Origin: an uncultured Bacteroidales bacterium
GTDB lineage: Bacteria > Bacteroidota > Bacteroidia > Bacteroidales > Bacteroidaceae
DNA length: 43,918 nucleotides
Direction of reading: 5' to 3'
Assembly: GCA_902779875.1 (NCBI GenBank)
Contig: CACZCX010000019.1
Location: forward strand, 1 to 43,918
The translations under genes and the position numbers were made by a program. Shown here one piece after another: positions 10,113 to 25,908 of this stretch (positions within the stretch are counted from its first letter, which is position 1; each line of letters begins with the position of its first letter). A model generated the notes under the pieces. It worked only from the letters and a program-made list of their open reading frames with translations. It was not told the origin of the DNA and made no database searches.

Positions 10113-10227
10113 ACATTAGGGACGGTTCCTAATGTGTTAGTTTTTGCGCAAAACTGCAACATTAGGGACGGTTCCTAATGTGTTAGTTTTTCGGGAAAAC
10201 TGCAACATTAGGGACGGTTCCTAATGT
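10113..10227. repeat. REP-like array, three units at a 46-bp period
   Basis: Three identical 23-bp hairpins at 10113-10135, 10159-10181 and 10205-10227 have the form ACATTAGG-GACGGTT-CCTAATGT. The two 23-bp spacers (10136-10158, 10182-10204) form a second palindrome, GTTAGTTTT...AAAACTGCA. The array lies between divergent genes. Confidence 0.9.
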
Positions 10228-10245
10228 AAAAAATTGGAATTTTAG

Positions 10246-10276
10246 TTTGCAAATTAAAATTTTAGTTTTATGTTTG
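10246..10276 (+). promoter_or_regulatory. blaI promoter with overlapping direct repeats
   Basis: TTTG (10246-10249) and TATGTTTG (10269-10276) are spaced 19 nt apart, a good Bacteroides promoter. The 10-bp direct repeat ATTTTAGTTT at 10239-10248 and 10259-10268, exactly 20 bp apart, overlaps the -33 box and abuts the -7 box. It is a candidate site for autoregulation by the BlaI-type repressor encoded downstream. BlaI operators are usually dyads around TACA/TGTA, which I do not see here. Confidence 0.6.
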
Positions 10277-10297
10277 CATCGTTAATTTGAATTTGCA

Positions 10298-10678
10298 ATG
10301 GAAAAGAACAAGACTAAACTGCAGGAACTGACCAAGGGTGAGCTGGAGACGATGCAGATCGTATGGAAGCTCGACGGCGAGTTCATAGTACGCGACGTGC
10401 ACGACCTGATGCCCGAGCCCAAACCGGCCTACAACACCGTGTCGACCATGGTCCGCATACTCGACACCAAGGGGTTCCTGACCCACCGCACGCTCGGCCA
10501 CACCAATCTGTACAAGGCCGCAGTCACCAAACAGGAATACACCGGCACATTCATGCAGGGTGTCCTGAACTCCTTCTTTGACGGCTCCGTAAGCAGGCTC
10601 GTCACTTTTTTCTCAGACAACAGGAACATATCGGTAAAGGAGGCCGATGAGATCCTGAACATGCTCAGTAAAAAATAA
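10298..10678 (+). CDS. BlaI/MecI/CopY-family transcriptional repressor
   Basis: This 126-residue protein has the family's N-terminal winged helix (LTKGELETMQIVW, then YNTVSTMVRILDTKGFLTHR) and a C-terminal dimerisation helix region. Such repressors bind operator DNA as dimers and are inactivated by cleavage after a BlaR1-type membrane protease senses a signal. The next gene encodes exactly that partner, 18 bp downstream. Nothing beta-lactamase-like is in the operon, so the controlled function is unknown. It probably represses its own operon through repeats overlapping the promoter. Confidence 0.92.
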   Translation: MEKNKTKLQELTKGELETMQIVWKLDGEFIVRDVHDLMPEPKPAYNTVSTMVRILDTKGFLTHRTLGHTNLYKAAVTKQEYTGTFMQGVLNSFFDGSVSRLVTFFSDNRNISVKEADEILNMLSKK

Positions 10679-10696
10679 TCCTTACAACCTATAACT

Positions 10697-12754
10697 ATGA
10701 CCTTTTATATTCTCTCCGTAATAGTATGCAGCGGAATTTTCTATCTGCTCTACAGAACGTTTGTACAGCACAAGGCAAGCTACACATTCTGCCGTCGTTA
10801 CCTGATCCTGACCATGCTGCTCGCAGCCATCATCCCCACCCTGAAAGTGCCTCTCTACCACACCCAGGGCACCCGACAGCCTGAAATGGAAATGATAACG
10901 ACCGATGCCCCCACCCCCATAAACAATCAGCCCGTTGCAACCGGCCAGCCCGCAACAACCTCTCTCTCCACCCCGACAGTATCGGCCGATGCCCCCGCAA
11001 CGACCGCCCAAGTCGCAAAAAATGATTACAAATTACATCTTCCCGGCCGTATAGTATTCAAGCTGGTCCTCTTCATAATCTACGTACTCGGAGTCCTGGT
11101 CTCACTCGGACTGACCGTGCGCAGCCTCATTTATATAATAAGGATGAGGAACCGCTCCGTCCTGACCCGCTCCGAGAGCTACACCATGGCCGAGAACAGT
11201 GACGTGACACAGCCGTTCTCATTCCGCGACACCATATTCCTGGGCCGCAAATACGAGCCCTGGGAGCTGCGCCAGATCATGAGCCACGAGTGCAGCCACA
11301 TACGCCACCGTCACTCGCAGGAGAAACTGTTCATGTCAGTTCTGCGTTCGCTGTTATGGTTCAATCCCTTCATCTGGATGTCTGAGAAGAGCCTTGAGGA
11401 GGTACAGGAATGGCAGGCCGATAACGACGCGCTGCACGACGGCGGATACGACGTGGATGAGTACCGCGACACCGTGATACGCATGCTGTTCGGTCTGAGC
11501 CCGCTGGCCACCACCGGCATGAGCAACTCGTTCACCCGCAAACGACTGCTCCACATGAAGGAGAATGAGTCCAAGGGGCACCTGCTGGCGGTATCGGCCG
11601 TGACGGCAGTGGTTGTATCGGCCCTGTTCTTATGCTTTGGCTGCAGGATGGTGGTCGACACTCCTCCCGCCAACGATGACAGCAGGGCCATTCCGGGCAA
11701 ACGTCCGCAATTCATGGCCACCGAGGGCGCCTACCGCGAATATCTGAGCAGCGACAACAGGATGTATTTCTGCCTCGAGGACCTGGTATACGCCAGCCCG
11801 TCCTATAAGTTCAAGCACAGCTTTTTTCCTGAGAGCATTACGGCCAATGACATACAGCGTGGTCTTGAGTTCATGGAACACCCGGGCCGCGAGCTCCCCA
11901 CCCTTGTTTGCGTGAACGGTTACAGTATGGCCGATTTCCCCACATCGAAAGAGCTTAAATGGGTCAATAACAAGACATTAATCTTTATCGGAAACCACAA
12001 GGCCACACTCGACGAGTTCAACAACCTTAAACCCGAGGACTATCTGGCAATCATCTATTACAGGCCCAAAAAGAACAGAAAATCCATTCCCTCAATGGTT
12101 TACGCAATCACTGTGGAGAGCCTTGACAACACTACCAGCTACAATTTTGCGTGCAGGATCAATTCCGATGATGTCAATGTTCGCGACGTGATATGTCCGG
12201 GTGGTTTCGGTCTCCACGGGAATTATTTCATATGCTCCTCAAATATCAACATTGCCATAACCGAACATTTTGCCGTCAACGGACGCCTGGTGAGTCTGGA
12301 GGAATTCCGCAAGGCATACAACAACCATTTTTACAACCCTCTTGTTCTTAGAGGTGAACAGGCATCAAGAATTTACGGCAGTGATGTCAAGGAGGTGGCC
12401 GAACTCAGGAACTTTGGCGCCTACCATGTAAGATTTATTCGCGATGAGCAGAACCGCGTACTGGCCGAGCTTATGGGCAAACGGTACGAGCCGCAGGAGC
12501 TTAAGGATCTGGCCAAGTACGTGAACGCCCAAGAGCAGCCGCTGGGAGTCGAGCCCCTCACACTGGTGGAGATTAACTTTGACCAGACCTATGAGTGGCT
12601 CACCGATGATATCGTGCAGGAGTTCTGCCGATACATCCCCTGGGACGACCCCGCCCTCATTATCGAGGCATTCCGCGTGGCCAACGTGACCCGCTACGAG
12701 GAGGGATACGGATTAGTAAGGAGCAGAGAGTTGCTTCCGGTTTCAAGAAATTAA
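10697..12754 (+). CDS. BlaR1-like M56 antirepressor with novel C-terminal sensor region
   Basis: This 685-residue membrane protein starts with hydrophobic helices (from residue 1, and around 120-150), then the zinc protease motif HECSH (His197-Glu198, His201) and a downstream EVQEWQAD block. A further membrane helix lies near 296-316 (LLAVSAVTAVVVSALFLC). The region after it (about 325-685) would face the periplasm; it does not look like a penicillin-binding domain. Part of it (about 400-530: LPTLVCVNG, TLIFIGNHKATLDEF, GLHGNYFI, AVNGRLVS) closely resembles the lipoprotein encoded next. By family logic, ligand sensing outside triggers the M56 site to relieve BlaI repression. The ligand is unknown. 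Confidence 0.85.
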   Translation: MTFYILSVIVCSGIFYLLYRTFVQHKASYTFCRRYLILTMLLAAIIPTLKVPLYHTQGTRQPEMEMITTDAPTPINNQPVATGQPATTSLSTPTVSADAPATTAQVAKNDYKLHLPGRIVFKLVLFIIYVLGVLVSLGLTVRSLIYIIRMRNRSVLTRSESYTMAENSDVTQPFSFRDTIFLGRKYEPWELRQIMSHECSHIRHRHSQEKLFMSVLRSLLWFNPFIWMSEKSLEEVQEWQADNDALHDGGYDVDEYRDTVIRMLFGLSPLATTGMSNSFTRKRLLHMKENESKGHLLAVSAVTAVVVSALFLCFGCRMVVDTPPANDDSRAIPGKRPQFMATEGAYREYLSSDNRMYFCLEDLVYASPSYKFKHSFFPESITANDIQRGLEFMEHPGRELPTLVCVNGYSMADFPTSKELKWVNNKTLIFIGNHKATLDEFNNLKPEDYLAIIYYRPKKNRKSIPSMVYAITVESLDNTTSYNFACRINSDDVNVRDVICPGGFGLHGNYFICSSNINIAITEHFAVNGRLVSLEEFRKAYNNHFYNPLVLRGEQASRIYGSDVKEVAELRNFGAYHVRFIRDEQNRVLAELMGKRYEPQELKDLAKYVNAQEQPLGVEPLTLVEINFDQTYEWLTDDIVQEFCRYIPWDDPALIIEAFRVANVTRYEEGYGLVRSRELLPVSRN

Positions 12755-12766
12755 AGACTTAAGCAT

Positions 12767-13567
12767 ATGAAAAAGAGTGTTGCATTAATGGTAATGGCGT
12801 TGTTTGCATCGGCCCTCATGATATGCCTTGCAGGTTGCGGGCAGAGCAGTCTTAAAGGCGAGTACGGCTGGTTCCTCAGGGTTGACGGTTTCATTTATGC
12901 CGATACCGCCGCCCATCGTGGCGAGGTCGTAGTCAACCGATTCTACGACAGCAGGTTCCTGTCAAACAACGAGCGCAAGAGAGGGTTCGAGATTGCCGAG
13001 TACACCGGCCTGGATTCCTACCCCACCATGATCGCAATCAACGCATGCAAGTATGCCGATTCGCCCAAATCGCCGCTTCTGAGCTGGATCGATGAGAACA
13101 CCATAATCGTGATAGGCGACCGCCTGGGCACCGTCGACGAGTTCCGTGCGCTCAAGTCAAGTGATTATATATCAATCATATACTCCAAGTCCCGCAAGGC
13201 TGAGAACAAGCCCTCCATTGTCTATGCGCTGACCGATAAGAGCGTCGACATCCACTCCGGCTACGAGCGGGAGGTATTCCTGGACACTCCCGATGCGGAC
13301 ATCCCGGAGTTTATTGAGCCCGGAGTCATGGGACTTCACGGCACCTACCTGCTGTACAGCTGCAACAATTGCATGTACGGCGCCATCGCCGGCCTGGCTG
13401 TCAACGGCAATCTGGTGGGGAAAGAGCGTTATATGGAGGTTTATGACAGCATCTCCGATGGCGGAACAAAGGTCTACAGTGCCAGGAACTACGTTTACCG
13501 CGGCTCAGAGGCCCGTTCCAGGTTCGGGACCGGGTTCAACACGGTCTATGACTTTTGGCCACTGTAA
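12767..13567 (+). CDS. Lipoprotein paralogous to the BlaR1 sensor domain
   Basis: The 266-residue product has a signal peptide with lipobox LAGC (Cys24). Its body aligns by eye with the preceding BlaR1-like protein: YPTMIAIN/LPTLVCVN (from residue 85), TIIVIGDRLGTVDEF/TLIFIGNHKATLDEF, KPSIVYALT/IPSMVYAIT, GLHGTYLL/GLHGNYFI and LAVNGNLV/FAVNGRLV. It is 12 bp downstream of that gene, so it is in the same operon and presumably the same signalling unit. It could be a co-receptor, a decoy that binds the same ligand, or an immunity-like factor. I know no named family for it. Confidence 0.82.
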   Translation: MKKSVALMVMALFASALMICLAGCGQSSLKGEYGWFLRVDGFIYADTAAHRGEVVVNRFYDSRFLSNNERKRGFEIAEYTGLDSYPTMIAINACKYADSPKSPLLSWIDENTIIVIGDRLGTVDEFRALKSSDYISIIYSKSRKAENKPSIVYALTDKSVDIHSGYEREVFLDTPDADIPEFIEPGVMGLHGTYLLYSCNNCMYGAIAGLAVNGNLVGKERYMEVYDSISDGGTKVYSARNYVYRGSEARSRFGTGFNTVYDFWPL

Positions 13568-13570
13568 GAC

Positions 13571-14098
13571 TCAGCCGGCAGGTTCCTCCCCTTGGGCATC
13601 CCCTTGGGCATCGGTAAACAGCTTGTCAATATCAAAGTTCATACATCTGTAAAGGACCGCCAGATACCTCTGCGGCTCATTTTTGACGAGCTGGGTGATC
13701 ACTATACGGTAACCGCCGTAATTATCGGCTTGGGCATAGACGGTCAGTTCCTGTTCATCGGTACTGATCTCGTAAAGTGTCTCGAGATCTTTCTCCTTGA
13801 TTGTTGACATGACCGACTTCTCTAGCTCGCCGGTCATGTCATCGCCTTTTTCGGGGCGTGTGGCCGATACCATCTCGATCGATGTAAGGTGGCTTACAAG
13901 GTATTCCACGTCAATTCCCTTGATCCTGGGCACTCCCTTTTTCAGGTTGGGATTGTTGCGGTTGACGCCTGCCGTGTAGAAGTATTCAACGCCCTTGGAG
14001 CGCGATATGCTCCCAAAGAATCCCTTTTGGGCGCATGCTCCGCATGCAGTCATAAGCATGAAAAGCAGCATTATGAGTTTATGTGTTATATGTTTCAT
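13571..14098 (-). CDS. DUF4252-like exported protein in the ECF operon
   Basis: This 175-residue protein has a signal peptide ending near ACA-Q. The pattern after it (LTSIEMVSA, KEKDLETLYEIS, LTVYAQ, YRIVITQLV, LAVLYRCMNFDIDKLF) resembles DUF4252 proteins, which in Bacteroidota often sit in operons with an ECF sigma factor and its anti-sigma factor, as here. The C-terminus ends in a short repeat (DAQG DAQG). It is the last gene of the operon and converges, with a 3-bp gap, on the BlaR1 operon. Family assignment is from memory of the pattern and is tentative. Confidence 0.65.
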   Translation of the reverse strand: MKHITHKLIMLLFMLMTACGACAQKGFFGSISRSKGVEYFYTAGVNRNNPNLKKGVPRIKGIDVEYLVSHLTSIEMVSATRPEKGDDMTGELEKSVMSTIKEKDLETLYEISTDEQELTVYAQADNYGGYRIVITQLVKNEPQRYLAVLYRCMNFDIDKLFTDAQGDAQGEEPAG

Positions 14099-14113
14099 TT
14101 CTGTAATCGCTGG

Positions 14114-14416
14114 TTAGAACAAAAAATCAATTGCATTATCCGTATTGCTGGAGCCTAGCTCGAAAGCGTAGAACAGCAGGTCCATGGCCTCATCGGTCTT
14201 GCGGATCTCGTTGTCGTGCTGTCTGATACCCAGAAGGACGGCCACTGCCAGGCATGCGGCGATTCCGGTTGCGGGCAGGATGCGGCGCAGGACGATATTG
14301 CGTCTGCGGGCGGCATTCTCCTGACTCTGCCACATGTCAATCTGCATGGAAAGACGTTCCTCCAGACCCTCGGGTACGGGGATCTTCTCAAGTTCCTTGT
14401 AATCAATCTTATCCAT
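14114..14416 (-). CDS. Small anti-sigma-like membrane protein
   Basis: The 100-residue product has a soluble N-terminal part (about 1-45), one membrane helix (ILPATGIAACLAVAVLLGI, about 46-64) and a short outer tail. It overlaps the 3' end of the ECF sigma gene by 8 bp, which implies translational coupling and roughly equal production. Size, topology and position fit the anti-sigma partners of Bacteroidota ECF sigma factors, although no zinc-binding HxxxCxxC motif is present. It should hold the sigma factor at the membrane until a signal frees it. Confidence 0.72.
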   Translation of the reverse strand: MDKIDYKELEKIPVPEGLEERLSMQIDMWQSQENAARRRNIVLRRILPATGIAACLAVAVLLGIRQHDNEIRKTDEAMDLLFYAFELGSSNTDNAIDFLF

Positions 14417-14912
14417 TGTTATGTCCTTTGAGTTTGTAAATCAGTTTGTTCTTGGCTCTCATCACTATCTGCCTCAGGTTGTTTTGCTTGAGTCCGGTCT
14501 CCTGCTCCAGTTCCGTGTATGACTTGCTCTCTATCACGTGCATGCTCAGGATCCGGCGTTCGCCCGGCGGCAGTTCATCGATGGCCTTCATGACACGCCG
14601 GTTCTCGGTTTCCTGAACGAGCAGATTCTCCGGATTGTCATAATCTATGGGGTGTGCCACCTTGTCTATATCGGCCCTGGCGTCTATCTGCATCCTGCGC
14701 TGACGGTCGTAGAAGAGGTTCTTTATGACGGTGATGAGGTATGCATCGGTCCCGGATTCGGGCGGCAGGATGTCACGTTTCTGCCACAGCCTGAGATAGG
14801 TGTCCTGTACCAGGTCCTCGGCGTCCTGAACATTCTGTGTCAGCGACCAGGCTATCCTGTACAGCAACTTATGCTGTTGCAGATATCGTTTCTTGAACTC
14901 TACGGCATCCAT
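14409..14912 (-). CDS. ECF-type RNA polymerase sigma factor
   Basis: The 167-residue protein has region 2 (YRIAWSLTQNVQDAEDLVQDTYLRLWQ, with the DAEDLVQD core) and region 4 (LPPGERRILSMHVIESKSYTELEQETGL), the two domains of a group 4 sigma factor. It lacks the extra C-terminal domain of SigK-type proteins. It lies between an upstream exported protein gene (11 bp) and the anti-sigma-like gene (8-bp overlap). Its regulon is not visible, though ECF operons normally autoregulate. Confidence 0.93.
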   Translation of the reverse strand: MDAVEFKKRYLQQHKLLYRIAWSLTQNVQDAEDLVQDTYLRLWQKRDILPPESGTDAYLITVIKNLFYDRQRRMQIDARADIDKVAHPIDYDNPENLLVQETENRRVMKAIDELPPGERRILSMHVIESKSYTELEQETGLKQNNLRQIVMRAKNKLIYKLKGHNNG

Positions 14913-14923
14913 CCTGCTGGTTA

Positions 14924-15523
14924 TCAGAAGAATATCCTGAACGGTCTGTTCCTTAAATACAGTATGGACTGCAGCTTGCGGTTCTCGGAGTAGATGATAA
15001 TGGCAATGCCATGGGTTAGCATGAACGATCCATGTGTATAGTAGAATGATACTCCTGCGTTGGGCGGCAGCATATTGGATATGAGTTTTGCCATCTCCTT
15101 ATTCCTGCCGTCCAGCATGATAGTATCTGCCATGCTGTTCAGTTCAAACTGGCAGTACGCATCGTGCGCCTTGTCAAGTTCGGCCGCGAAATCATGAATC
15201 TCAGAATCATAGGCGACCAGCATCATGCCTTTATGCTTGCTTATACGTCTCTTGGTGATGTAGCCGTCCGGCTTGGGAAGAATCTTGTTTATGCTGTCTT
15301 CCGATATGCTGTCACCATATGCCTTAAGCATCTCTTTCTTGGCTTTCCTGACCGCTTTATTATAAGTGTGCCAGGATGTATGACGGTTGGTGATGTTCAC
15401 ATAGAACGCAAACTCTTTGTCCCGATTCTCCCTGATCATTCTGGCGGCTGTATTGGCGGCCATGGTCAGGTTGCCTGGTGCTGTAAGGAGAGCGATGATT
15501 GCAAACAGAATTAATTTTCTCAT
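14924..15523 (-). CDS. Exported protein of unknown function heading the ECF operon
   Basis: This 199-residue protein has an N-terminal signal peptide (cleavage near TMA-A). The mature part is rich in charged helices (about 25-75, with a Lys-rich KAVRKAKKEML segment), followed by more beta-like sequence (GVSFYYTHGSFMLTHGIAIIIYSE) and a basic end. I do not recognise a family. It stops 11 bp before the sigma factor gene, so it is probably the first gene of that operon and may belong to its signal-sensing or output side. Confidence 0.7.
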   Translation of the reverse strand: MRKLILFAIIALLTAPGNLTMAANTAARMIRENRDKEFAFYVNITNRHTSWHTYNKAVRKAKKEMLKAYGDSISEDSINKILPKPDGYITKRRISKHKGMMLVAYDSEIHDFAAELDKAHDAYCQFELNSMADTIMLDGRNKEMAKLISNMLPPNAGVSFYYTHGSFMLTHGIAIIIYSENRKLQSILYLRNRPFRIFF

Positions 15524-15562
15524 AATCGTTTTAGTTGTTAGGGTTCATAAATGAATTCTGAA

Positions 15563-15574
15563 TGAAACGTTTCA
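15563..15574. promoter_or_regulatory. Perfect 12-bp palindrome upstream of the ECF operon
   Basis: TGAAACGTTTCA lies about 40 bp before the first start codon. It has the form of LacI/GalR-family operators such as the Cra consensus. Binding by such a regulator is an inference. Confidence 0.4.
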
Positions 15575-15607
15575 ATCATGTAAACGGGACTACCATTCGT
15601 TTTGTTA

Positions 15608-15650
15608 CAAAAAAAAATTCGCGTGAACCGGATTGGTCCACGCGAATTTA
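15608..15650 (-). terminator. dnaK terminator
   Basis: Outer stem AAATTCGCGTG (15615-15625) / CACGCGAATTT (15639-15649) plus an inner ACC/GGT pairing. On the minus strand it is followed by a run of T (A run at about 15608-15617 on +), as expected for an intrinsic terminator of dnaK. Confidence 0.85.
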
Positions 15651-15672
15651 TTGAATTATTCTGTTTTGAGCT

Positions 15673-17604
15673 TTACTTTACCTCCTCAAAGTCAGCATCC
15701 TGAACGTTGTCGTTGTTGCTGCCTGAGTTGCTGCTCTGGCCTGCGCCGGCGTTCTGTGAGCCGCCCTGAGCGCCTGCACCTGCACCGGGCTGTGCGCCGC
15801 TCTGCTGGTACATCTGGGCGCTGGCTGCCTGGAAGGCGGTGTTGAGCTCTGCCATTGCCTTGTCGATGGCGGCCAGATCCTGAGCCTTGTGAGCGTCCTT
15901 AAGAGCGCTGAGGGCTGATTCTATGGGAGCCTTCTTATCGGCCGGGATCTTGTCGCCAAGCTCCTGCAGCTGCTGCTCGGTCTGGAAGATCATTGAGTCA
16001 GCCTGGTTGAGCTTATCGACTTTCTCGCGCTCCTTCTTATCGGCATCGGCATTGGCCTCGGCCTCAGCCTTCATGCGGTCAATCTCCTCCTTGCTCAGAC
16101 CTGAGCTTGCCTCAATACGGATGGCCTGCTCCTTGCCTGTAGCCTTATCCTTGGCCGATACCTTAAGGATACCGTTGGCATCGATATCGAAAGTAACCTC
16201 AATCTGAGGTACGCCACGACGTGCGGGTGCGATACCCTCCAGGTTGAACTGGCCGATGGACTTGTTCTGTGCGGCCATGGGGCGCTCGCCCTGCAGCACG
16301 TGTATTGTTACGGCTGTCTGGTTATCGGCCGCGGTTGAGAATATCTCGCTCTTCTTGCAGGGGATGGTTGTGTTGGCCTCGATCAGCTTGGTCATTACAC
16401 CACCCATGGTCTCGATACCCATGGTCAGCGGGGTTACATCCAGAAGTACGATGTCACCTACACCACCCTCCTTGTTCAGGATGGCGCCCTGGATCGATGC
16501 ACCTACGGCTACTACCTCATCGGGGTTAACGCCCTTTGAAGGAACCTTGCCGAAGAAGTCCTCAACAAGCTTCTGAACGGCGGGGATACGGCTTGAACCA
16601 CCTACCAGGATTACCTCGTCTATATCGGAATTGCTCAGACCGGCGTCCTGCATAGCCTTGCGGCAGGGCTCCAGGCAAGCCTGGATCAGGCCGTTGGCAA
16701 GCTGCTCGAACTTGGCACGGGTCAGGGTCTTTACGAGGTGACGGGGAACACCGGCTACCGGCATGATGTACGGCAGGTTGATCTCGGTGCTGGTTGATGA
16801 TGACAGCTCGATCTTGGCCTTCTCGGCAGCCTCCTTAAGACGCTGCAGTGCCATCGGGTCTGCTGTCAGGTCTGCGCCCTCGTCCTTCTTGAACTCCTCA
16901 ACCAGCCAGTTGATGATTACCTGGTCAAAGTCATCACCGCCCAGGTGGGTGTCACCGTTGGTTGAGAGCACCTCGAATACGCCGCCGCCGAACTCCAGGA
17001 TGGAGATATCGAATGTACCGCCACCCAGGTCGAATACGGCAATCTTCATATCCTTGCCGGCCTTGTCAACACCGTATGCCAGAGCGGCAGCGGTAGGCTC
17101 GTTCACGATACGCTTTACATCCAGGCCTGCAATCTGGCCGGCCTCCTTGGTGGCCTGACGCTGTGAATCGCTGAAGTATGCCGGAACTGTGATTACAGCC
17201 TCGGTTACCTCCTGACCCAGATAGTCCTCAGCGGTCTTTTTCATCTTCTGCAGGATCATGGCGCTGATCTCCTGAGCGGTGTACAGACGGCCGTCTATGT
17301 CCACACGGGGCATGTTGTTATCGCCCTTGACTACCTTATAAGGTACACGTGCGATCTCCTTCTGGACCTGATCCCAGTTCTCACCCATGAAACGCTTGAT
17401 TGAGTAGACTGTGCGCTGGGGGTTGGTGATGGCCTGACGCTTGGCAGGGTCACCTATCTTACGCTCGCCGCCGTCAACGAATGCAACGATTGAGGGAGTT
17501 GTGCGCTTACCCTCCGAGTTGGCAATTACGACGGGCTCATTTCCTTCAAATACTGAAACGCACGAGTTCGTGGTTCCAAGGTCAATTCCAATAATCTTTC
17601 CCAT
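15673..17604 (-). CDS. dnaK: Chaperone DnaK (Hsp70)
   Basis: This 643-residue protein matches DnaK over its full length: [16 protein letters not shown] at the start, the [11 protein letters not shown] and [14 protein letters not shown]-binding motifs, the linker [15 protein letters not shown], a peptide-binding domain and a helical lid. The tail is Gln/Gly/Asn-rich and ends DADFEEVK, close to the usual EEVK end. It refolds proteins with DnaJ and GrpE; neither gene is adjacent. A terminator follows, and two REP units lie upstream between it and recA. No HrcA-type CIRCE operator was seen upstream. Confidence 0.98.
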
Positions 17605-17699
17605 ATTATTTAGTTTTTTTGTTTGTACTCAAAATTTGACACTGACATAACTGCAAACCCAATGCCACGCCACCCATTCTGCCGTTTTGTCATACTGCA

Positions 17700-17768: not shown

Positions 17769-17787
17769 GTTAGTTTTTGCAGCAGCA

Positions 17788-17825: not shown

Positions 17826-17844
17826 TTTATGAGTATGTCAAAAA

Positions 17845-18915: not shown

Positions 18916-19004
18916 ATTATGGTTGTTTTAGTTCTTAAATCCCGAAGAGCGTTCTCCAAGGTATCAGTTTCTCTTCAGCGGGGTGCCGTCCGGCACTCTG
19001 TAGG

Positions 19005-19012
19005 CAAAGATA
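19005..19012 (-). promoter_or_regulatory. -7 box of the recA promoter
   Basis: On the minus strand this reads TATCTTTG, a full match to TAnnTTTG. No TTTG -33 box was found at 19-21 nt, so only the -7 element is supported. Confidence 0.5.
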
Positions 19013-19037
19013 AGAATTCACGGAGTTAATGGAATTA

Positions 19038-19073
19038 TTTGACGGGGGAATTTATCAACAAATGTTATATTTG
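19038..19073 (+). promoter_or_regulatory. tex promoter, close to the start codon
   Basis: TATATTTG at 19066-19073 matches the -7 box and TTTG at 19038-19041 may be the -33 box, though 24 nt apart is long. The ATG at 19082 follows after 8 nt, so the transcript would be leaderless or nearly so. Confidence 0.5.
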
Positions 19074-19081
19074 CGTCTTGT

Positions 19082-21217
19082 ATGAATGCAGAATATATTT
19101 CGATAATAGTTCGTGAAACCGGCCTCAAGGAGCATCAGGTGGAGAATACGCTCAAGCTCCTGGAGAACGGCGCCACGATTCCGTTTATAAGCCGATACCG
19201 CAAGGAGTCGACCGGCGGCATGGATGAGGTACAGGTGACCGAGGTGAGCGACGCGCTGGAACGTCTGGAGGCGCTGGCCAAGCGCAAGGAGACCGTCCTG
19301 GCCACCATCGAGAGCCAGGACAAGCTGACTGACCAGCTGCGCTCCAGGATCGAGCACTGCTGGGACTCGGTGGAGCTCGAGGACATATACGCCCCCTACA
19401 AGCCGCACCGTAAGACAAGGGCCGATGCCGCCCGCGAGAAGGGTCTGGAGCCGCTGGCAGAGTTCGTCATGAAGCAGAACCAGTACGTGCCGCTGGACCG
19501 CGAGGCCACCAAATACGTGAGCAAGGACAAGGGCGTGGAGTCGGTCGATGACGCGCTTCAGGGCGCCATGGACATAATCGCCGAGCAGGTGTCGCTCGAC
19601 GAGAGCGCCCGCAACCTGGTACGCAGCGGCTACCGTCGCGAGGCCCGCATATATTCAAAGGTGGTCAAGAGCAAGGAGGCCGATGCCCAGAAATACCGCG
19701 ACTGGTTCGATTTCTCGGAGTCGCTCAAGCGATGCGCCTCCCACCGTCTGCTGGCCATGCGCCGCGGCGAGGCCGAGGGTTACCTGCGCGTATCGATCGA
19801 GATCGATGACGAGAAGACGGCCGATGCACTCTCGGGCCGATACGTACACGGCAAGTCCGAGGTATCGCAGCTGGTCGATGAGGCTGTGCAGGACTCCTAC
19901 TACCGCCTGCTGCAGCCATCGGTCGAAAACGAGTTCGCGGCATCGTCGAAGAGCGCAGCTGACGCTGAGGCGATACGCATATTCGCACGCAACCTTGAGC
20001 AGCTGCTTATGGCCTCTCCGCTAGGCCAGAAGGCGGTTATGGGCATCGACCCCGGTTTCAGGACAGGCTGCAAGGTGGTTTGCCTGGATGCTCAGGGTGC
20101 GCTCCTGCATAACGAGACGATTTACCCCCACCCGCCCCACAATGAGGCGCGTCAGGCATCGGCCAAGATCCAGGCGCTGGTGGAGCAGTATAAGATTGAG
20201 GCCATTGCGATTGGTAACGGCACGGCGGGACGCGAGACCAAGGAGTTCGTGGAACGGCTCAGACTGCCGGCATCGGTCCAGGTTTATGCCGTGAACGAGG
20301 ACGGTGCATCGATCTATTCCGCATCAAAGACGGCGCGTGACGAGTTTCCGGATTACGACGTGACGGTGCGCGGGGCGGTGTCGATAGGCAGGCGTCTTAT
20401 GGATCCGCTGGCCGAGCTGGTCAAGATTGACCCGTCATCGATCGGCGTGGGGCAGTATCAGAAGGACGTGAACCAGACCGATCTCAAGCATTCGCTCGAC
20501 CAGACGGTGATCAGCTGCGTGAACCGCGTGGGTGTGAACCTGAATACCGCGAGCACGCATCTGCTCACTTATATAAGCGGTCTGGGACCTGTCCTGGCGC
20601 AGAATATTGTCGATTATCGGACCCAGAACGGACCGTTCAAATCACGCAAGGAGTTGCTCAAGGTGCCTCGTCTGGGGGCCAAGGCGTTCGAGCAGGCGGC
20701 GGGATTCCTCAGGGTTCCGGGAAGTACGGAGCCGCTCGACAATTCGGCGGTGCACCCCGAGAGTTACGGCATTGTGGCACGGATGGCAAAGGACCTGGGA
20801 TGCTCGGTGGCAGACCTCATGAAGTCGGCCGAACTGCGCAGCAAGATTGACCTGGAGCGTTACGTCACCGATAAGGTCGGGCTCCCCACCCTGACCGATA
20901 TCATGCACGAGCTTGAAAAGCCCGGCCTGGATCCGCGCGGTCCGCTCAAACAGTTCGAGTTCTCGAGCGAGGTTCATACCATTGACGATGTCAAACCCGG
21001 CATGGAGCTGCCCGGAATCGTGAACAACATCACCAATTTCGGAGCGTTCGTGGATATCGGCGTGCATATCAAGGGCCTGGTGCATATATCGCAGCTCGCC
21101 CCGGGACGCTTTATCAAGGACCCCAGCGAGGTAGTCTCCCTCAACCAGCAAGTCATGGTCAAAGTCCTCGACGTAGACCTACCCCGCCAGCGCATCAGCC
21201 TCCAACTAACACATTAG
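19082..21217 (+). CDS. tex: Tex family RNA-binding transcription accessory protein
   Basis: This 711-residue protein has the Tex layout: an N-terminal helical region (LLENGATIPFISRYRKESTGGMDEVQV), a YqgF-like RNase H fold core (MGIDPGFRTGCKVV, about residue 320 onward), helix-hairpin-helix repeats (ASTHLLTYISGLGPVLAQNIV) and a C-terminal S1 domain (GIVNNITNFGAFVDIGVHIKGLVHIS). Tex binds nucleic acid and affects transcription in several bacteria. The last three codons (Leu-Thr-His) and the TAG stop come from the REP unit that begins just downstream, so the native C-terminus has been replaced or trimmed slightly. It is divergent from recA. Confidence 0.95.
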   Translation: MNAEYISIIVRETGLKEHQVENTLKLLENGATIPFISRYRKESTGGMDEVQVTEVSDALERLEALAKRKETVLATIESQDKLTDQLRSRIEHCWDSVELEDIYAPYKPHRKTRADAAREKGLEPLAEFVMKQNQYVPLDREATKYVSKDKGVESVDDALQGAMDIIAEQVSLDESARNLVRSGYRREARIYSKVVKSKEADAQKYRDWFDFSESLKRCASHRLLAMRRGEAEGYLRVSIEIDDEKTADALSGRYVHGKSEVSQLVDEAVQDSYYRLLQPSVENEFAASSKSAADAEAIRIFARNLEQLLMASPLGQKAVMGIDPGFRTGCKVVCLDAQGALLHNETIYPHPPHNEARQASAKIQALVEQYKIEAIAIGNGTAGRETKEFVERLRLPASVQVYAVNEDGASIYSASKTARDEFPDYDVTVRGAVSIGRRLMDPLAELVKIDPSSIGVGQYQKDVNQTDLKHSLDQTVISCVNRVGVNLNTASTHLLTYISGLGPVLAQNIVDYRTQNGPFKSRKELLKVPRLGAKAFEQAAGFLRVPGSTEPLDNSAVHPESYGIVARMAKDLGCSVADLMKSAELRSKIDLERYVTDKVGLPTLTDIMHELEKPGLDPRGPLKQFEFSSEVHTIDDVKPGMELPGIVNNITNFGAFVDIGVHIKGLVHISQLAPGRFIKDPSEVVSLNQQVMVKVLDVDLPRQRISLQLTH

Positions 21218-21279
21218 GGACGGTTCCTAATGTTGCAGTTTTCCCGCAAAACTAACACATTGGGGACGGTTCTTAATGT
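21211..21279. repeat. REP-like pair after tex
   Basis: Hairpins at 21211-21233 and 21257-21279, 46-bp period. The tex stop codon TAG (21215-21217) is inside the first one. The second shows the ACATTGGG / CTTAATGT variant. The spacer palindrome is in the opposite sense (TGCAGTTTT...AAAACTAAC) to that at 10 kb. Confidence 0.88.
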
Positions 21280-21295
21280 AAAATTTTTGTTTCTT

Positions 21296-21327
21296 TTTGT
21301 ACTTTTATAAAAAATTTGTTAAATTGG
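21296..21327 (+). promoter_or_regulatory. Aquaporin promoter
   Basis: TTTG (21296-21299) and TAAATTGG (21320-21327, one mismatch to TAnnTTTG) are 20 nt apart. The predicted start lies about 30 nt before the ATG at 21365. Confidence 0.5.
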
Positions 21328-21364
21328 CGCCGCTAAATAAAACCAACAACTTAAAAAGGATAGT

Positions 21365-22039
21365 ATGAAAAAGTACTTAGCTGAGATGATCGGAACTATG
21401 GTTCTGGTTCTTATGGGTTGCGGCGCAGCCGTCAGCCTGGGTTGTTCACCTGCCGCTCCCGGCGTTCCCGGTGTAGTCGGTACAGCACTTGCATTCGGTC
21501 TGGCAGTAGTTGCCATGGCATATGCCATCGGCGGTATTTCAGGCTGTCATATCAATCCCGCCATCACTCTTGGCGTGTGGATTTCAGGCCGCATGAGCGG
21601 TAAGGATGCCATCATGTACATGATCTTCCAGATTATCGGCGCAATCATCGGCGCTGCTATCCTGTTCGCCCTCACACCCGGCGGCATGGGCGAGAATGTA
21701 TGTCAGAACGGCATCAGCATCGGACAAGGATTCATAGCTGAGCTGGTATTCACATGCGTATTCGTACTCGTTGTTCTGGGTACGACCGATAACCTCAAGG
21801 GCGCCGGCAATTTTGCTGGTCTGGCCATCGGCCTCTCGCTTGTCCTGGTTCATCTGGTTTGCATCCGATACACAGGCACTTCCGTGAACCCCGCCCGTTC
21901 TATCGGCCCTGCCCTGTTCGCAGGCGGTGCAGCCCTCCAGCAGCTCTGGATATTCATCTTAGCTCCTCTCTGCGGCGGCGCACTCGCAGCTGCAATCTGG
22001 AAGATGATTGGTGCCGAGCCCATCAAAAAGAAGAAATAA
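21365..22039 (+). CDS. Aquaporin, AqpZ-like (MIP family)
   Basis: This 224-residue membrane protein has six hydrophobic helices and both pore motifs: HINPAI in the first half and VNPARSIG in the second. The aromatic/Arg filter Arg in NPAR is present, and the overall pattern (GGISGCHINPAITLG, FVLVVLGTTD) is that of water-specific AqpZ and not glycerol facilitators. It sits in the inner membrane and passes water. The C-terminus ends in a run of lysines. It stands alone, converging on the RAYT gene with REP sequences between them. Confidence 0.93.
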   Translation: MKKYLAEMIGTMVLVLMGCGAAVSLGCSPAAPGVPGVVGTALAFGLAVVAMAYAIGGISGCHINPAITLGVWISGRMSGKDAIMYMIFQIIGAIIGAAILFALTPGGMGENVCQNGISIGQGFIAELVFTCVFVLVVLGTTDNLKGAGNFAGLAIGLSLVLVHLVCIRYTGTSVNPARSIGPALFAGGAALQQLWIFILAPLCGGALAAAIWKMIGAEPIKKKK

Positions 22040-22052
22040 TCTCCTTTTTATA

Positions 22053-22140
22053 ACATTAGGGACGGTTCCTAATGTGTTAGTTTTCCCGCAAAACTGTAAC
22101 ATTAGGAACCGTCCCTAATGTTGCACTAATGTTGCAGTTT
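22053..22140. repeat. REP-like inverted pair plus fragment at the RAYT 3' end
   Basis: A hairpin at 22053-22075 in plus sense and one at 22099-22121 in the inverted sense, still at a 46-bp period. A broken partial copy (GCACTAATGTTGCAGTTT) follows to about 22140. The RAYT stop codon (TAA on minus, 22077-22079) lies in the spacer palindrome, so this array encodes the last 20 or so residues of the RAYT frame. Confidence 0.88.
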
Positions 22141-22937
22141 TTGTGTGTAACTTTGCGGATTATGTAACTGCTCACACCGATTATGCGTGAGAGTTGCCTG
22201 GCGTTGGCACCAAACGCACAAGCACTCCGGATCAGTTCATTCCTGGCTTTTTTGCCAAGCGACTGGACGACCATGGGATTTTCAATTCCGTGCTCGTACA
22301 GTATAAACTCCCGGATTCTCTCATCGTCCATCCTGAGACATCTTGTATTGTCAAAATCAAGAACCTTCTGCATTTTGGGCATCGGATCATTAACAAGACA
22401 TATCAGCTTGTCTTTGGGAACCTTTTCAAACACCGATCCTGTAGCACAGAACGCAATCTCACATGATTTTGGGTTGATGTACTCCTGCCAACTGCTCCAC
22501 CTGTACCCGGCGACGGTATGAGAGAGGCCACCGGCAACCGGATTCTGATGAATGTACCTCAGCAACGTGATGAAATAATTGATGTTATCAACCGGCTCAC
22601 TCTTGAAACGGTCCTGAAAGACATGCCCCGAGTGATCGTATTTGGTATTGTAATGCTGAGCGTAAGATATTGCTATGCATTTAATTACGTCCGATATAGA
22701 CTCACTCTTCTGCCGGATAAGCAGATGAACGTGATTCGGCATGAGGCAATACGCATAAATTACGCAGCACGCGGGCATCGGATTCCCGTCCTGGTCCTCT
22801 GGGAAGCATTTTTTGTAGAGAAGCTGTTGAAACTTGACGAAATCGGAATCGACTTCAAAGATGTGCTGGTGGTTGATTCCACGCAGGATTACGTGATAAA
22901 AGCCCGATGAGCTTTTTAGTCGGATTGTCCTTGGCAT
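22077..22937 (-). CDS. REP-associated tyrosine transposase (RAYT, Y1/HUH family)
   Basis: The 286-residue protein has the IS200-like Y1 transposase fold: FYHVILRGINHQHIF at the start, the metal-binding HUH motif in MPNHVHLLI (His69, His71), and the RAYT-typical ISYAQHYNTKY...GHVFQDRFKSEP stretch, with Tyr92, Tyr96 and Tyr100 as candidates for the nucleophile, then LLRYIHQNPV. A C-terminal helix-turn-helix-like part (about 235-265) resembles the DnaA-type domain found on some RAYTs. RAYTs nick single-stranded REP hairpins and are thought to spread REPs. It is flanked by REP units on both sides (22053-22121 and 23047-23069). The last residues (ATLGTVPNVTVLREN) are read from REP sequence. Confidence 0.92.
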   Translation of the reverse strand: MPRTIRLKSSSGFYHVILRGINHQHIFEVDSDFVKFQQLLYKKCFPEDQDGNPMPACCVIYAYCLMPNHVHLLIRQKSESISDVIKCIAISYAQHYNTKYDHSGHVFQDRFKSEPVDNINYFITLLRYIHQNPVAGGLSHTVAGYRWSSWQEYINPKSCEIAFCATGSVFEKVPKDKLICLVNDPMPKMQKVLDFDNTRCLRMDDERIREFILYEHGIENPMVVQSLGKKARNELIRSACAFGANARQLSRIIGVSSYIIRKVTHKNCNISATLGTVPNVTVLREN

Positions 22938-23046
22938 AGATTTTAAATTTTGTGTTTATCGGCTGCAAGGTATAAAAATTCTCAACAGCAACTGCTATTC
23001 TCGTGAAAATTTTTTCGTTTTGTGCAACCCGGAAAGAAAAACTGCA

Positions 23047-23069
23047 ACATTAGGAACCGTCCCTAATGT
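23047..23069. repeat. Single REP-like hairpin at the 5' side of the RAYT gene
   Basis: One inverted-sense copy flanked by AAAACTGCA on the left and TGCAGTTTT on the right, making a palindrome of about 41 bp. It is the only solitary copy in the window and lies just after the stop of the next minus-strand gene. Confidence 0.88.
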
Positions 23070-23083
23070 TGCAGTTTTGGAGT

Positions 23084-23575
23084 TTACGGCTCCTGGGTGA
23101 AACGGATGTCCAGCGTTTCATGTACGCCGTCATCGCTGATTACCTTTCGGGGTATACGGATATTTCCCGTACGCTCTTCATGGGTCTCATTGGGCTTGAT
23201 TGAGAGCTGAACCTTATGGTCCTTGAGCTCTACGGTGAACCATTCCCATTCAAAATAGTTGAATCCTTCTTCAGGGTCCAGGTTAAGCAGGTCCGGCTCA
23301 ACGACTATGTCGCGTCGTTTGAGGATGGTACCCAGTTGGTCATAATCTTTCTCCTTGAGATAGAAGAAAACCACAGAGTCCTGATTCAGGACATAATGCA
23401 GATAATAGTCGTCAAACGGGATCTGCATTGTTACTTTGCCGCCACGGGCATCGAATTCAAGATTCTCATGTGTCGTGTTGAATTCGTCCTGGTACGGGGT
23501 CTTGATTGCGTCCTCTTTATTGCAAGATATAAGTGCAAACAAACTTGCAGCAATCAATGGATAAAAACGTTTCAT
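23084..23575 (-). CDS. Small lipoprotein with BACON-like beta domain, downstream of the C10 protease
   Basis: The 163-residue product has a signal peptide and lipobox LISC (Cys18). The mature part starts LEFDARGGKVTMQIP and ends with NETHEERTGNIRIP, a layout like a BACON-type Ig domain (GG-KVT near the start, ERT-x-I-x-I near the end). It follows the C10 peptidase gene by 32 bp on the same strand, so the two are likely co-transcribed. In Bacteroides fragilis C10 peptidases are coupled to small inhibitor-like proteins; this gene could have a similar role, but no direct homology to those inhibitors is seen. Confidence 0.75.
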   Translation of the reverse strand: MKRFYPLIAASLFALISCNKEDAIKTPYQDEFNTTHENLEFDARGGKVTMQIPFDDYYLHYVLNQDSVVFFYLKEKDYDQLGTILKRRDIVVEPDLLNLDPEEGFNYFEWEWFTVELKDHKVQLSIKPNETHEERTGNIRIPRKVISDDGVHETLDIRFTQEP

Positions 23576-23607
23576 AAATACTTAATTATAAATTGGTTAA
23601 ACAAATG

Positions 23608-25035
23608 TCACTTATATATGTCCGTGATGCATTCGAGATTGTACTGAAAGTAGTTGTGTTGTCCATGTACTTCGGTATGTCCGGCTCTGGTCACAGGACC
23701 CTGATTTATGTCGAATGTGTCCCAGTTGTAATAACCGTCCATTGACAGTTCGGGCTGACCGTAGTTGCAGTGAACGAGCGTGCTCTTGAGTCGGCCGCCT
23801 GACATCACCCTGTTGCCAAGAACTGTGTAATAATAGGTGTAAACGTTCATGATGCCGTCGAGCAGCCATGCGTGACCCTCGTCATAATAGGTGTGGCTGT
23901 ATTTCTCCCAGAATATGAGATAACGCTTGTAGACATCGTACTTGAGGGCGCTTCCGGCAATCAGCACGGGGCGGCCGTTCAAGAGTGAATTCTCCACCTT
24001 GGTCTTGTCATAACTGCCGTAATTGCCGGTGTTATAACCCAGACTGTTAAGGTAAGTGGGTATGTCAGAGAAATATGTGGAGCTTTTCTTGAGACCGTAT
24101 TTGGTGTTGAGTCCTACGCCGACGTCGCTCATGAGCTGTGAGATGGTGTAGAAGGTGGTCAGGCTCTCATTGCCGCGTTCAGGCATCATCACGTCCCAGT
24201 TGTAGGTGCTGGGGTATCGCCAGAAAGCCATGAGCTGAGCGGTAGCGGTCGCACCACATCCGGTTACAGCATGCTGACCGTTTATGAGAGGAGTATAGAG
24301 GTTGTAGGGATTCTCCTGTCCCCATGCTACGGGAATGAGGGGAGCGACCTCGGCCTCGTATGTGGTATTGCCGTAAATCACCTCGATTCTGGGCTCATCG
24401 CCTGTGTTGACGTTTGCCTTTGGGGCCGATGCGCGGGTAAGCGTCTCGCCGTTCTCAGCGCTGATCTTGGCCAGGGCAGCCTCCACGAGTGAGTCCTTGA
24501 GTTCATCGGCCCTGCGTATCTGCTCCTCATATGCGGCGTAGAGGTTTCCGTAGAACACCATGACGCCTGAATGCAGGATGTCTTCGGACATATCGGCCTC
24601 AAAATCGATGTTACCGTTCGGGACGAGTGCCAGGATGCTGCTTGTCCTGCGGTCGGCTGAGCAGATGGTGTATCCGCTGTCGTCGCTGAAATTGAACGCG
24701 TAGGCCAGGGTATCGGTCGTCTCGGCGCCTCTGGTCTTGGCTTCCTGGCGGGTCAGGGGCTTGACGCTGGCTATCGTACGGCCCGAACCGCTCCTGGTAG
24801 CGCTCTGTGCGTCAAGGAACTGCATGGCAGCCTGAGCGGAGAGTGTGGCCTCCTCCAGCGATATTTTTGTGCCCATGAATTCACATGACAAAGCGATTAA
24901 CTCGTCATTTGTCAGTTCGTTTGATTGTTCCTGTTGATCTTGTTGAAGGGCGTCTAGCTGGTCAGTAATTGTACCGTTGCACGAAATTGTGAGTACAGAT
25001 AATAAGATGATGGTTGGTAAAAAGGTTTTGTTCAT
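23608..25035 (-). CDS. C10 family (streptopain-like) cysteine peptidase precursor, lipoprotein
   Basis: This 475-residue protein has a signal peptide with lipobox TISC (Cys19), a long prodomain (about 30-230, including the Spi-like ADRRTSSILALVPNG region), and a papain-fold catalytic domain with nucleophile Cys260 in AVTGCGATATAQ and catalytic His388 in GHAWLLDG. It would cleave proteins at the cell surface or after release, following removal of the propeptide. The family includes SpeB of Streptococcus and the Bfp enzymes of B. fragilis. Length is in the normal range. The downstream lipoprotein may be its partner. Confidence 0.9.
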   Translation of the reverse strand: MNKTFLPTIILLSVLTISCNGTITDQLDALQQDQQEQSNELTNDELIALSCEFMGTKISLEEATLSAQAAMQFLDAQSATRSGSGRTIASVKPLTRQEAKTRGAETTDTLAYAFNFSDDSGYTICSADRRTSSILALVPNGNIDFEADMSEDILHSGVMVFYGNLYAAYEEQIRRADELKDSLVEAALAKISAENGETLTRASAPKANVNTGDEPRIEVIYGNTTYEAEVAPLIPVAWGQENPYNLYTPLINGQHAVTGCGATATAQLMAFWRYPSTYNWDVMMPERGNESLTTFYTISQLMSDVGVGLNTKYGLKKSSTYFSDIPTYLNSLGYNTGNYGSYDKTKVENSLLNGRPVLIAGSALKYDVYKRYLIFWEKYSHTYYDEGHAWLLDGIMNVYTYYYTVLGNRVMSGGRLKSTLVHCNYGQPELSMDGYYNWDTFDINQGPVTRAGHTEVHGQHNYFQYNLECITDIYK

Positions 25036-25144
25036 AATAATTAGTAATTTTGGTAAGAACTATTTAACACTGCAAAGAAAGCGAGTTCTGCCGAAATGAC
25101 CATTCATTTCAGAATCTTAAGTAGTTTTTGACGCGAACAATACC

Positions 25145-25152
25145 TAATTTTG
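25145..25152 (+). promoter_or_regulatory. -7 box directly before the pgeF start codon
   Basis: TAATTTTG matches TAnnTTTG fully and ends 3 nt before the ATG at 25156. A TTTG at 25127-25130 is only 14 nt upstream. If used, the transcript would be leaderless. Confidence 0.45.
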
Positions 25153-25155
25153 AGT

Positions 25156-25845
25156 ATGAATTCTTTATTCCGATACACAATTGCTGACAATATTGATGCG
25201 TTCAGCACCGAGCGTGGCGCCGAGCTTCCGTATTATGTGGTGCAGCCTCATCAGGTGCACGGGTGCGAAATCCGTGAGGTTACCGATCCTTTGACTACGC
25301 GCGATGAACTCGAGGGGGTCGATGCGCTCGTGACCGATGTCCCCGGCGTGGCAATCTCCGTGCGTACTGCCGACTGCATCCCGGTTCTGCTGTATGACCC
25401 TGTGAATAAGGCGATTGCGGCGGTTCATGCGGGGTGGCGCGGCACGGTTCAGCATATCAGCTGCAAGGTGATTGACCGGATGCAGGAGCTCTACGGCACC
25501 GATCCGGCTGACCTTCTCGCGGTTATCGGCCCCGGTATCGGTCCCGAGAGTTTTCAGGTTGGGCAGGAAGTGGCCGATGCGTTCTCTGAGGCCGGTTTCC
25601 CCATGACCAAGATTCTGGGCGACTGCGGTCCGAAAGCGCCGACTGCCGACAATCCCATGAACGGCGGACTGCATATTGACCTGTGGGAGGCGAACCGCTG
25701 GCTGCTCATGCGGAGCGGGGTGCTGGCGGAGAATATCAGGGTCTCGGGAATCTGCACCTACCTCAACAACGACCGCTTCTACTCCGCCCGCCGCGAAGGC
25801 ACCAAGTGCGGCCGCATCATCAACGTCATAAAACTGCAACATTAG
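25156..25845 (+). CDS. pgeF: Laccase-domain (YfiH/PgeF-type) protein
   Basis: This 229-residue protein has the family signature: HQVHG, RTADCIPVLLYD and AVHAGWRGTV, which carry the His-Cys-His site. Known members are multicopper-oxidase-like or act as peptidoglycan editing factor, removing misplaced L-Ser from muropeptides. The start is taken as ATG 25156; a TTG at 25150 in the same frame overlaps a -7 promoter box and is rejected. The last codons (Leu-Gln-His) and the TAG stop (25843-25845) are supplied by the REP unit beginning about 25836, as in tex. It converges on the SIS gene. Confidence 0.9.
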   Translation: MNSLFRYTIADNIDAFSTERGAELPYYVVQPHQVHGCEIREVTDPLTTRDELEGVDALVTDVPGVAISVRTADCIPVLLYDPVNKAIAAVHAGWRGTVQHISCKVIDRMQELYGTDPADLLAVIGPGIGPESFQVGQEVADAFSEAGFPMTKILGDCGPKAPTADNPMNGGLHIDLWEANRWLLMRSGVLAENIRVSGICTYLNNDRFYSARREGTKCGRIINVIKLQH

Positions 25846-25907
25846 GGACGGTTCCTAATGTTGCAGTTTTCCCGGAAAACTAACACATTAGGAACCGTCC
25901 CTAATGT
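25839..25907. repeat. REP-like inverted pair after pgeF
   Basis: A hairpin at 25839-25861 in plus sense and one at 25885-25907 inverted, 46-bp period, spacer TGCAGTTTTCCCGG-AAAACTAAC. The pgeF stop codon lies inside the first hairpin. Confidence 0.9.
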
Positions 25908-25908
25908 G

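Follow-up and report, generated by a model that had tools for sequence, protein, structure and literature searches.

A chromosomal RAYT of probable TIRYT type and its dispersed hairpin repeats in an uncultured Bacteroidales bacterium

The window analysed here is a stretch of 43,918 nucleotides from an uncultured Bacteroidales bacterium (contig CACZCX010000019.1 of assembly GCA_902779875.1). At 22077-22937, on the minus strand, it carries an open reading frame (ORF) of 286 aa for a Y1 (HUH) transposase that resembles the tyrosine transposases associated with repetitive extragenic palindromic sequences (REPs), known as RAYTs, and the related TIRYTs (Y1_Tnp, E = 1.6e-10). This gene lies among 12 exact copies of a 23-nt hairpin, ACATTRGG-N7-CYTAATGT, which form six sites starting at 10113 (three copies), 17700 (two), 21211 (two), 22053 (two), 23047 (one) and 25839 (two). 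A sequence-only reading of this DNA had reported 12 hairpins in six clusters within 16 kb and none elsewhere; the exact search bears this out, and a search allowing up to three mismatches found no copy in the window outside 10113-25907. Shuffled versions of the window gave a mean of 0.88 strand matches (maximum 4), compared with 24 observed.

Nine of the 12 hairpins have a perfect 8-bp stem and three contain G.T wobbles. The 23-mer is oriented, its centre reading GACGGTT on one strand, and many copies are extended outwards, by AAAACTGCA or AAAACTAAC to the left and by TGCAGTTTT or GTTAGTTTT to the right; some have no such arm on one side. Within clusters, starts are 46 bp apart. A triple on the plus strand (10113-10135, 10159-10181 and 10205-10227) occupies the divergent gap before a BlaI-like gene, and a direct plus-strand pair (17700-17722 and 17746-17768) lies between dnaK and recA. 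Another direct plus-strand pair comprises a copy at the 3′ end of tex (21211-21233), whose own TAG (21215-21217) is the stop codon of the tex ORF, and a partner in the gap between tex and the MIP gene (21257-21279). Just past the RAYT stop codon, a plus-strand copy (22053-22075) has an inverted partner at 46-bp spacing (22099-22121, minus strand), which falls within the 3′ end of the RAYT ORF and is read through into an extra C-terminal tail. The copy upstream of the RAYT (23047-23069, minus strand) is the centre of a 41-nt palindrome (23038-23078). A second such palindrome (25830-25870) contains the plus-strand copy at 25839-25861, whose own TAG (25843-25845) ends a laccase-domain ORF and whose inverted partner (25885-25907, minus strand) lies between convergent genes. 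The RAYT with REPs on both sides proposed from the sequence alone is confirmed, except that one of the copies in question sits inside the ORF and not beside it. At the edge of that copy, the short sequence CTAATGTTGCA is duplicated in tandem on the plus strand (22115-22136). Comparison of 9000-27000 with known RNA families gave 21 matches at E ≤ 1, all below the gathering score and nearly all to microRNA hairpins, which we attribute to chance.

The window RAYT contains the motifs H69-x-H71 and Y128, in the contexts NHVH and YIHQNP, followed by a C-terminal region resembling a helix-turn-helix (HTH) domain. Its homologues end at about codon 265 (alignment A1), the natural end of the protein as judged by homology, so that the last 20 or so residues correspond to the read-through into the repeat at 22099-22121; a comparable tail is present in a single one of the 17 relatives in A1 (L031, genome G243). 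All 67 sequences of alignment A2 agree at N68, H69, H71, Y128, N132 and P133, and the tyrosine motif of the relatives is YIHQNP in 57 of 66, YIHLNP in four and of other kinds in five. At E ≤ 1, HTH_23 was detected in 19 and HTH_28 in six of the 67 family members, and Bac_DnaA_C is not among the 25 families listed for them; the window RAYT gave no Pfam HTH match of its own and aligns with the RQxxR motif shared by its relatives. An AlphaFold2 model of residues 1-266 (mean pLDDT 92.6, pTM 0.73) shows five C-terminal helices. By Foldseek the model is closest to 4er8 (E 5e-7; TM 0.72 by target and 0.46 by query), a complex of Escherichia coli TnpA_REP with a REP hairpin, and the HTH-like tail extends beyond the length of its 165-residue chain. 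The closest orthologue of the window RAYT is at best 57% identical; in other RAYT lineages of the genus, proteins from different species share about 80-97% identity. Relatives were found in 12 of 72,556 plasmid records (all below 32% identity, a single one with coverage of at least 80%) and in one of 50,697 phage records (24% identity). The earlier notion of a domesticated transposase thus receives a hint from the cross-species identity and the near-absence from plasmids and phages, which falls short of showing vertical inheritance for the window RAYT itself, as it has no close orthologue.

The host genome (G000; 2.14 Mb in 74 contigs, 86.5% complete) contains 75 oriented exact hairpins, 63 of them beyond the window, and no match to a reversed control pattern. 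The enrichment outside this DNA that the sequence-only reading had proposed to check by such a count is therefore present. For a broader core, RGGGACGGTTCY, the count over both strands of this genome is 224 (control 0). The 75 copies form 47 sites, of which 26 are pairs, 20 hold a single copy and one is a triple; intra-site spacings are 46 bp in 27 of 28 cases and 44 bp in the other, and neighbouring copies are oriented +- (11), ++ (8), -+ (5) or -- (4). The 16 kb around the RAYT is the densest such stretch of the genome, with six of the 47 sites, a density reached in 0.05% of 2000 simulations of uniform placement along one genome-length line. Since three further contigs (C8, C4 and C22) also carry four sites per 16 kb, the clustering is a real property of the repeat family that is not confined to the RAYT; it does not show spread from this gene. 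We accordingly dropped the idea that the repeats cluster around the RAYT alone. A RAYT fragment truncated at a contig end was also seen on contig C41 of this genome (L060:496-572), and behind it stands a third repeat family, whose stems read GGGCACA.

Most insertions examined sit directly behind stop codons. In a set of 27 of the 47 sites, three fell inside naively called ORFs, and 19 of the 24 intergenic ones were 15 bp or less from a stop codon by the same naive calls. This position, together with the A-tract/stem/T-tract shape of the 41-nt form, speaks for 3′ hairpins selected by the host as bidirectional terminators or mRNA stabilisers, the RAYT being incidental or a former mobiliser. We regard this explanation as unlikely, as it leaves unaccounted for the sites in divergent gaps (3 of 24), the copy inside the RAYT ORF, the matched stems around RAYTs of two phyla and the differing repeat families that occupy one site in different species, the last two of which are described below.

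The best 80 loci of relatives from named genomes belong, by title, mainly to Bacteroidales and Bacillota, the latter including Heliorestis, Metabacillus, Pelosinus and Thermoanaerobacter. Flanks of 200 nt or more were available on each side at 74 loci; among these, the motif GGG[AT]C[AG]G was found within 400 nt upstream of the RAYT in 65, downstream in 66 and on both sides in 58, and its density was 3.61/kb near the gene versus 0.67/kb beyond 800 nt. The stem of the upstream repeat shared 0.74 identity with that of its own downstream repeat, against 0.38 with those of other loci (n = 60), and the upstream copy was on the plus strand and the downstream one on the minus strand at 43 of 60 loci. 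In 20 genomes of relatives (by title, 18 Bacillota and two Xylanibacter), the pattern GGGGACRGNTYC occurred 332 times compared with 63 for the reversed control, the excess being absent in some of them, e.g., G273 (1 versus 3) and G291 (1 versus 8). These data support an association of the window RAYT with an abundant palindromic repeat, both beside the gene and across the genome, and most of its relatives in the two phyla show a comparable arrangement.

The flanking repeats combine a mostly constant tip with stems that vary in a compensatory manner. When the best-pairing match per locus was taken, a choice that inflates the observed value, 6.21 of 9 outer stem positions paired on average, versus 4.08 with the 3′ arms re-dealt among loci (n = 68; 500 shuffles, maximum 4.6). 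In 17 hand-picked repeats of the genus, 91.4% of the cells of the proposed structure were paired (70.6% after shuffling) and covariation reached 0.60 (0.24 after shuffling, at most 0.16 in slid versions). Within one lineage of RAYTs that are about 80-94% identical, the stems read TACCA, TACAA or GCCAA around a tip that is constantly GGGG[AT]CAG[AG]CCCC. A reference-based scan of 54 copies from the host's own genome revealed no substitution at the ten core positions and 23 elsewhere. In a pattern-free search for perfect 8-bp hairpins around 19 RAYTs, eight showed GGGAC or GGGTC tips by eye, the remaining loci having no hairpin or different ones. RAYTs that are more distant as proteins also tend to have more distant stems (Mantel r 0.29, 0 of 2000 permutations; 64 of the 67 RAYTs have a repeat, and the best-pairing match was again used).

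Among 251 genomes of the family, RGGGACGGTTCY, counted on both strands, is abundant in the window's genus alone, the other 235 holding 0-5 copies. A second tip pattern, GGGACAGGTNCCTG, never exceeded nine copies in any of the 251, so that of the two patterns searched RGGGACGGTTCY alone reaches high numbers, and in this genus only. Of the 37 genus genomes, the 16 with a RAYT of the main clade (E ≤ 1e-119, a cut chosen after seeing the data) hold 7-224 copies, with a median of 58; six with a divergent RAYT alone hold 0-7, and 15 without a full RAYT have a median of 4. The difference between the first and last groups (one-sided Mann-Whitney P = 3e-4) and the excess of genomes with at least ten copies (14 of 16 with the main clade versus 5 of 21 others; Fisher P = 2e-4) were both computed without regard to relatedness. 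The sequence-only reading would have been contradicted by a repeat equally common without the RAYT. The medians of 58 and 4 speak for it, and five genomes in which no full RAYT was detected go the other way, with 15-95 copies: 95 in G104, 59 in G267, 56 in G217, 31 in G270 (control 3) and 15 in G257 (control 5). In these five the gene may have been lost or may have been missed by the metagenome-assembled genomes. In a sample of 27 copies from 20 stretches of G104 the core is kept and the stems vary, from which decay cannot be judged because the copies were chosen by their core.

Such RAYT-less genomes with many copies would also suit a miniature inverted-repeat transposable element (MITE), a non-autonomous element mobilised by another transposase whose insertions the RAYT merely carries. 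We consider this very unlikely, given that inverted copies bracket diverged RAYTs at most of the 74 loci, that a hairpin suits a Y1 enzyme as substrate and that the closest fold is that of TnpA_REP with its REP hairpin, no search having been aimed at another transposase family with the same ends.

The order dnaK-recA-tex is conserved in much of the genus, and the same intergenic sites were compared between species. The dnaK-recA gap was readable in 16 of 20 regions from relatives. It contains core repeats in three, with stems unlike those of the ACATT pair of the window: a GGGCACA pair in G161 and G266, and a single copy with another stem in G104. The gap measures 107-116 nt without core in G271, G024, G189 and G147, also lacks the core in G253, G267, G257 and G260, and holds long inserts without a core hairpin of this kind in five further relatives. 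Among the seven readable tex-MIP gaps, two have core repeats (a GACAAA pair in G175 and two nested families in G266), G268 has 42 nt only, G260 a 1.4-kb insert without core, and G253, G255 and G267 carry GACGCAAA-like repeats without the core of the window type. Some of the same intergenic sites are thus occupied by different repeat families, or by none, in different species. Global alignment of the dnaK-recA gap with that of G253 was too divergent to give boundaries.

Several other elements were noticed. A sequence of about 300 bp with inverted ends (GAACTTTTGGGGTATCGGTATC...GATACTGATACCCCAAAAGTTC, by eye) occupies the dnaK-recA gap of G161 (L184) and G104 (L191); in G161 it lies between two REP halves, and G260 (L195) has a similar one. 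Weak Y1 matches of about 320-340 aa occur in the dnaK-recA interval of five species (G133, G175, G217, G268 and G269), the interval of G175 also containing arrays of an 83-bp repeat. A 319-aa HYH-type Y1 protein, with YILRNGLHH around the tyrosine, is encoded between 135-bp direct repeats on contig C27 of G000 (L061:926-1885). RAYT genes are found in or beside the dnaK-recA-tex-MIP-laccase-SIS neighbourhood (15673-27064 in the window) in G000, G161, G230 and G266 (L184, L186 and L187); those of G161, G230 and G266 are 89-91% identical to one another and stand at different positions, which suggests either a hot spot for RAYTs or local rearrangement.

We compared the system with those described in two papers (Di Nocera et al. 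2013, PMC3733652; Quentin et al. 2018, PMC6006769), in the portions of their text available to us. TIRtrons are described there as a RAYT-like gene (TIRYT) between inverted repeats that share the motif GGGGWSAS, and their families as moderately abundant, some self-complementary and many in dimers or clusters (PMC3733652). The present system resembles them in its gene between inverted repeats and in its motif GGGG[AT]C[AG]G, although the strict GGGGWSAS fits the CAG tips and not the window tip GGGACGG, which has G for the A of the motif. It differs from the TIRtrons as set out there in that the motif caps a hairpin whose stem varies in a compensatory way, in core copies numbering up to 224 per genome, and in its occurrence in Bacteroidales and many Bacillota. 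Twenty of 26 TIRYTs belong to subclass 2.1, equivalent to RAYT group 1 of Bertels and, with 493 members in 14.9% of strains, the largest RAYT-type subclass in the 2018 table (PMC6006769). The clade of the window RAYT shares with this subclass NHVH, Y---NP and a long C-terminal tail with an HTH_23/HTH_28-like domain, and departs from its tabulated YIELNP or Y[IV]HLNP in that the family has mostly YIHQNP (PMC6006769). Subclass 2.6 (Bertels group 5) is found in Bacteroidetes, has YIH[QN]NP and is flanked by atypical structures copied elsewhere in the genome (PMC6006769); its members have, per the same text, a median of 179 aa and a short tail, compared with about 265 aa and an HTH-like tail here. 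By its long HTH tail and flanking motif, the window RAYT appears closest to TIRYTs and subclass 2.1, with YIHQNP pointing to subclass 2.6. The sequence-only reading called REP/RAYT systems best known in Proteobacteria; RAYTs of subclasses 2.4 and 2.6 had already been recorded in Bacteroidetes (PMC6006769).

The Y1/HUH core fold and the hairpins that flank the gene and occur in pairs recall E. coli TnpA_REP (4er8). A classical GTAG-type REP/RAYT system, as in Escherichia and Pseudomonas, could claim the Y---NP motif, the 4er8-like fold, the paired repeats and a REP family both dispersed (75 copies at 47 sites) and flanking the gene. It is nevertheless the least probable of the explanations considered, and barely credible. 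We dropped this label: no GTAG or GTGG is present at the 5′ foot of the copies listed, whose feet are mostly CTGCA or CTAAC; the HTH-like tail, an additional C-terminal helical domain, exceeds the 165-residue length of 4er8; and the NCBIfam model REP_Tyr_transpos scores 53.3 bits, below its cut-off of 80. In contrast to the E. coli GTAG REPs and bacterial interspersed mosaic elements (BIMEs), the constant element lies at the tip. What had been called a REP/RAYT system is a RAYT-family enzyme with an abundant palindromic repeat; it is not the classical kind and fits the TIRYT/2.1 kind better. The palindromic CGTC-tagged REPs, reported from five phyla including Bacteroidetes, have CGTC as an unpaired end tag and no flanking transposase in the description available (PMC3733652); the repeats here are also palindromic and contain CCGTCC on one strand. 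We rejected this label too, as the CGTC of the present repeats belongs to their tip and these repeats flank a RAYT. Among the matches listed by title in the open-licence literature, we found no account of GGGACGGTTC hairpins with RAYTs.

We therefore consider it likely that the window contains a chromosomal RAYT system of the TIRYT type, nearest to subclass 2.1 and Bertels group 1, in which an enzyme combining a Y1/HUH core with an HTH domain would move the hairpins. That the RAYT moves them is suggested by its enzyme family and by the associations described above. The protein encoded at 22077-22937 would most likely bind its cognate hairpin as single-stranded DNA, perhaps the GGGGACGG strand, recognising the conserved tip, which reads GGG-A-C[A/G]G and is rich in pyrimidines on its 3′ side, atop a stem whose sequence is free as long as it pairs. 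Y128 would then mediate cleavage next to the hairpin, and units of one or two hairpins would be moved in trans into new intergenic sites, the RAYT gene itself remaining at low copy number.

Several observations weigh against this proposal. Besides the repeat-rich genomes without a detected RAYT, the choice of the main-clade cut, the disregard of phylogeny and the selection of best-pairing matches mentioned above, the motif was missing on at least one side at 16 of the 74 loci, and the own downstream repeat was the best or tied-best match of the upstream one at just 37 of 60. Two of five measures on the 17 genus repeats hardly departed from shuffled data (7 versus 6.1 for pairs with both sides changed; 16 versus 13.6 for further pair types). 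The conservation of the tip across loci is partly by construction, as the core pattern fixes part of its 5′ side, and tip distance followed RAYT protein distance weakly (r 0.11, 58 of 2000 permutations). No exact insertion junction was resolved. As to the strand, 17 of the 23 changes pair solely on the GGGACGG strand (12 A-to-G and 5 C-to-T), three solely on the other and three on neither, a bias that carries little weight because the stretches were fetched by a pattern permitting exactly those two changes. In the window alone, all five stem changes leave the GGGACGG strand able to pair, possibly reflecting few events, and a strong strand preference by fold energy was not found, the values of -5.5 and -5.0 kcal/mol differing little. 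Finally, the second RAYT lineage of the host genome (contig C11 of G000, with orthologues in G271, G255 and G024) lacks the core alongside the gene, its repeats having by eye GACGCAAA stems and a GGGGTCGTTT tip. This lineage and the pattern bias of the strand test led us to weigh the proposal, and the further idea on recognition given at the end, slightly lower. The C11 RAYT, the second full one of G000, is 49% identical to the window RAYT and 94-95% to its three orthologues, and is flanked by a TGACGCAAAGGGGTCG repeat family of its own (L021:1020-1104, 1998-2064, 2650-2750 and 3190-3260).

Elsewhere in the window, two neighbouring tyrosine-phosphatase genes with Big_2 domains (6953-10071) were noted. 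A BlaI/BlaR1-like pair, consisting of a penicillinase repressor family protein and an M56 peptidase, follows the triple repeat (10298-12754), and a C10 (streptopain-family) peptidase with a Spi inhibitor-like domain is encoded near the RAYT (23608-25035).

What is new here is the hairpin model, in which a near-constant tip sits on a stem that is free to vary so long as it pairs, together with the presence of such hairpins in two phyla, their large numbers in one genus and the differences between species at the sites they share. The substrate of subclass 2.1 enzymes was open, since the 2018 survey, in the text available, found no REP-like sequences near their genes (PMC6006769), and a near-constant tip on a free stem now provides a concrete candidate. 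More doubtful than probable is the further idea that RAYT group 1 inverts the recognition known from E. coli, the near-constant tip being read, perhaps by the HTH domain, and the stem merely pairing. If true, many seemingly unrelated REP families would obey a single recognition code in Bacteroidota and Bacillota alike. A single RAYT could then mobilise several of them, and this would also explain RAYT-poor genomes with large repeat populations. The genus itself, with repeat families that differ between species at the same sites, should be useful for following the birth and death of such populations.

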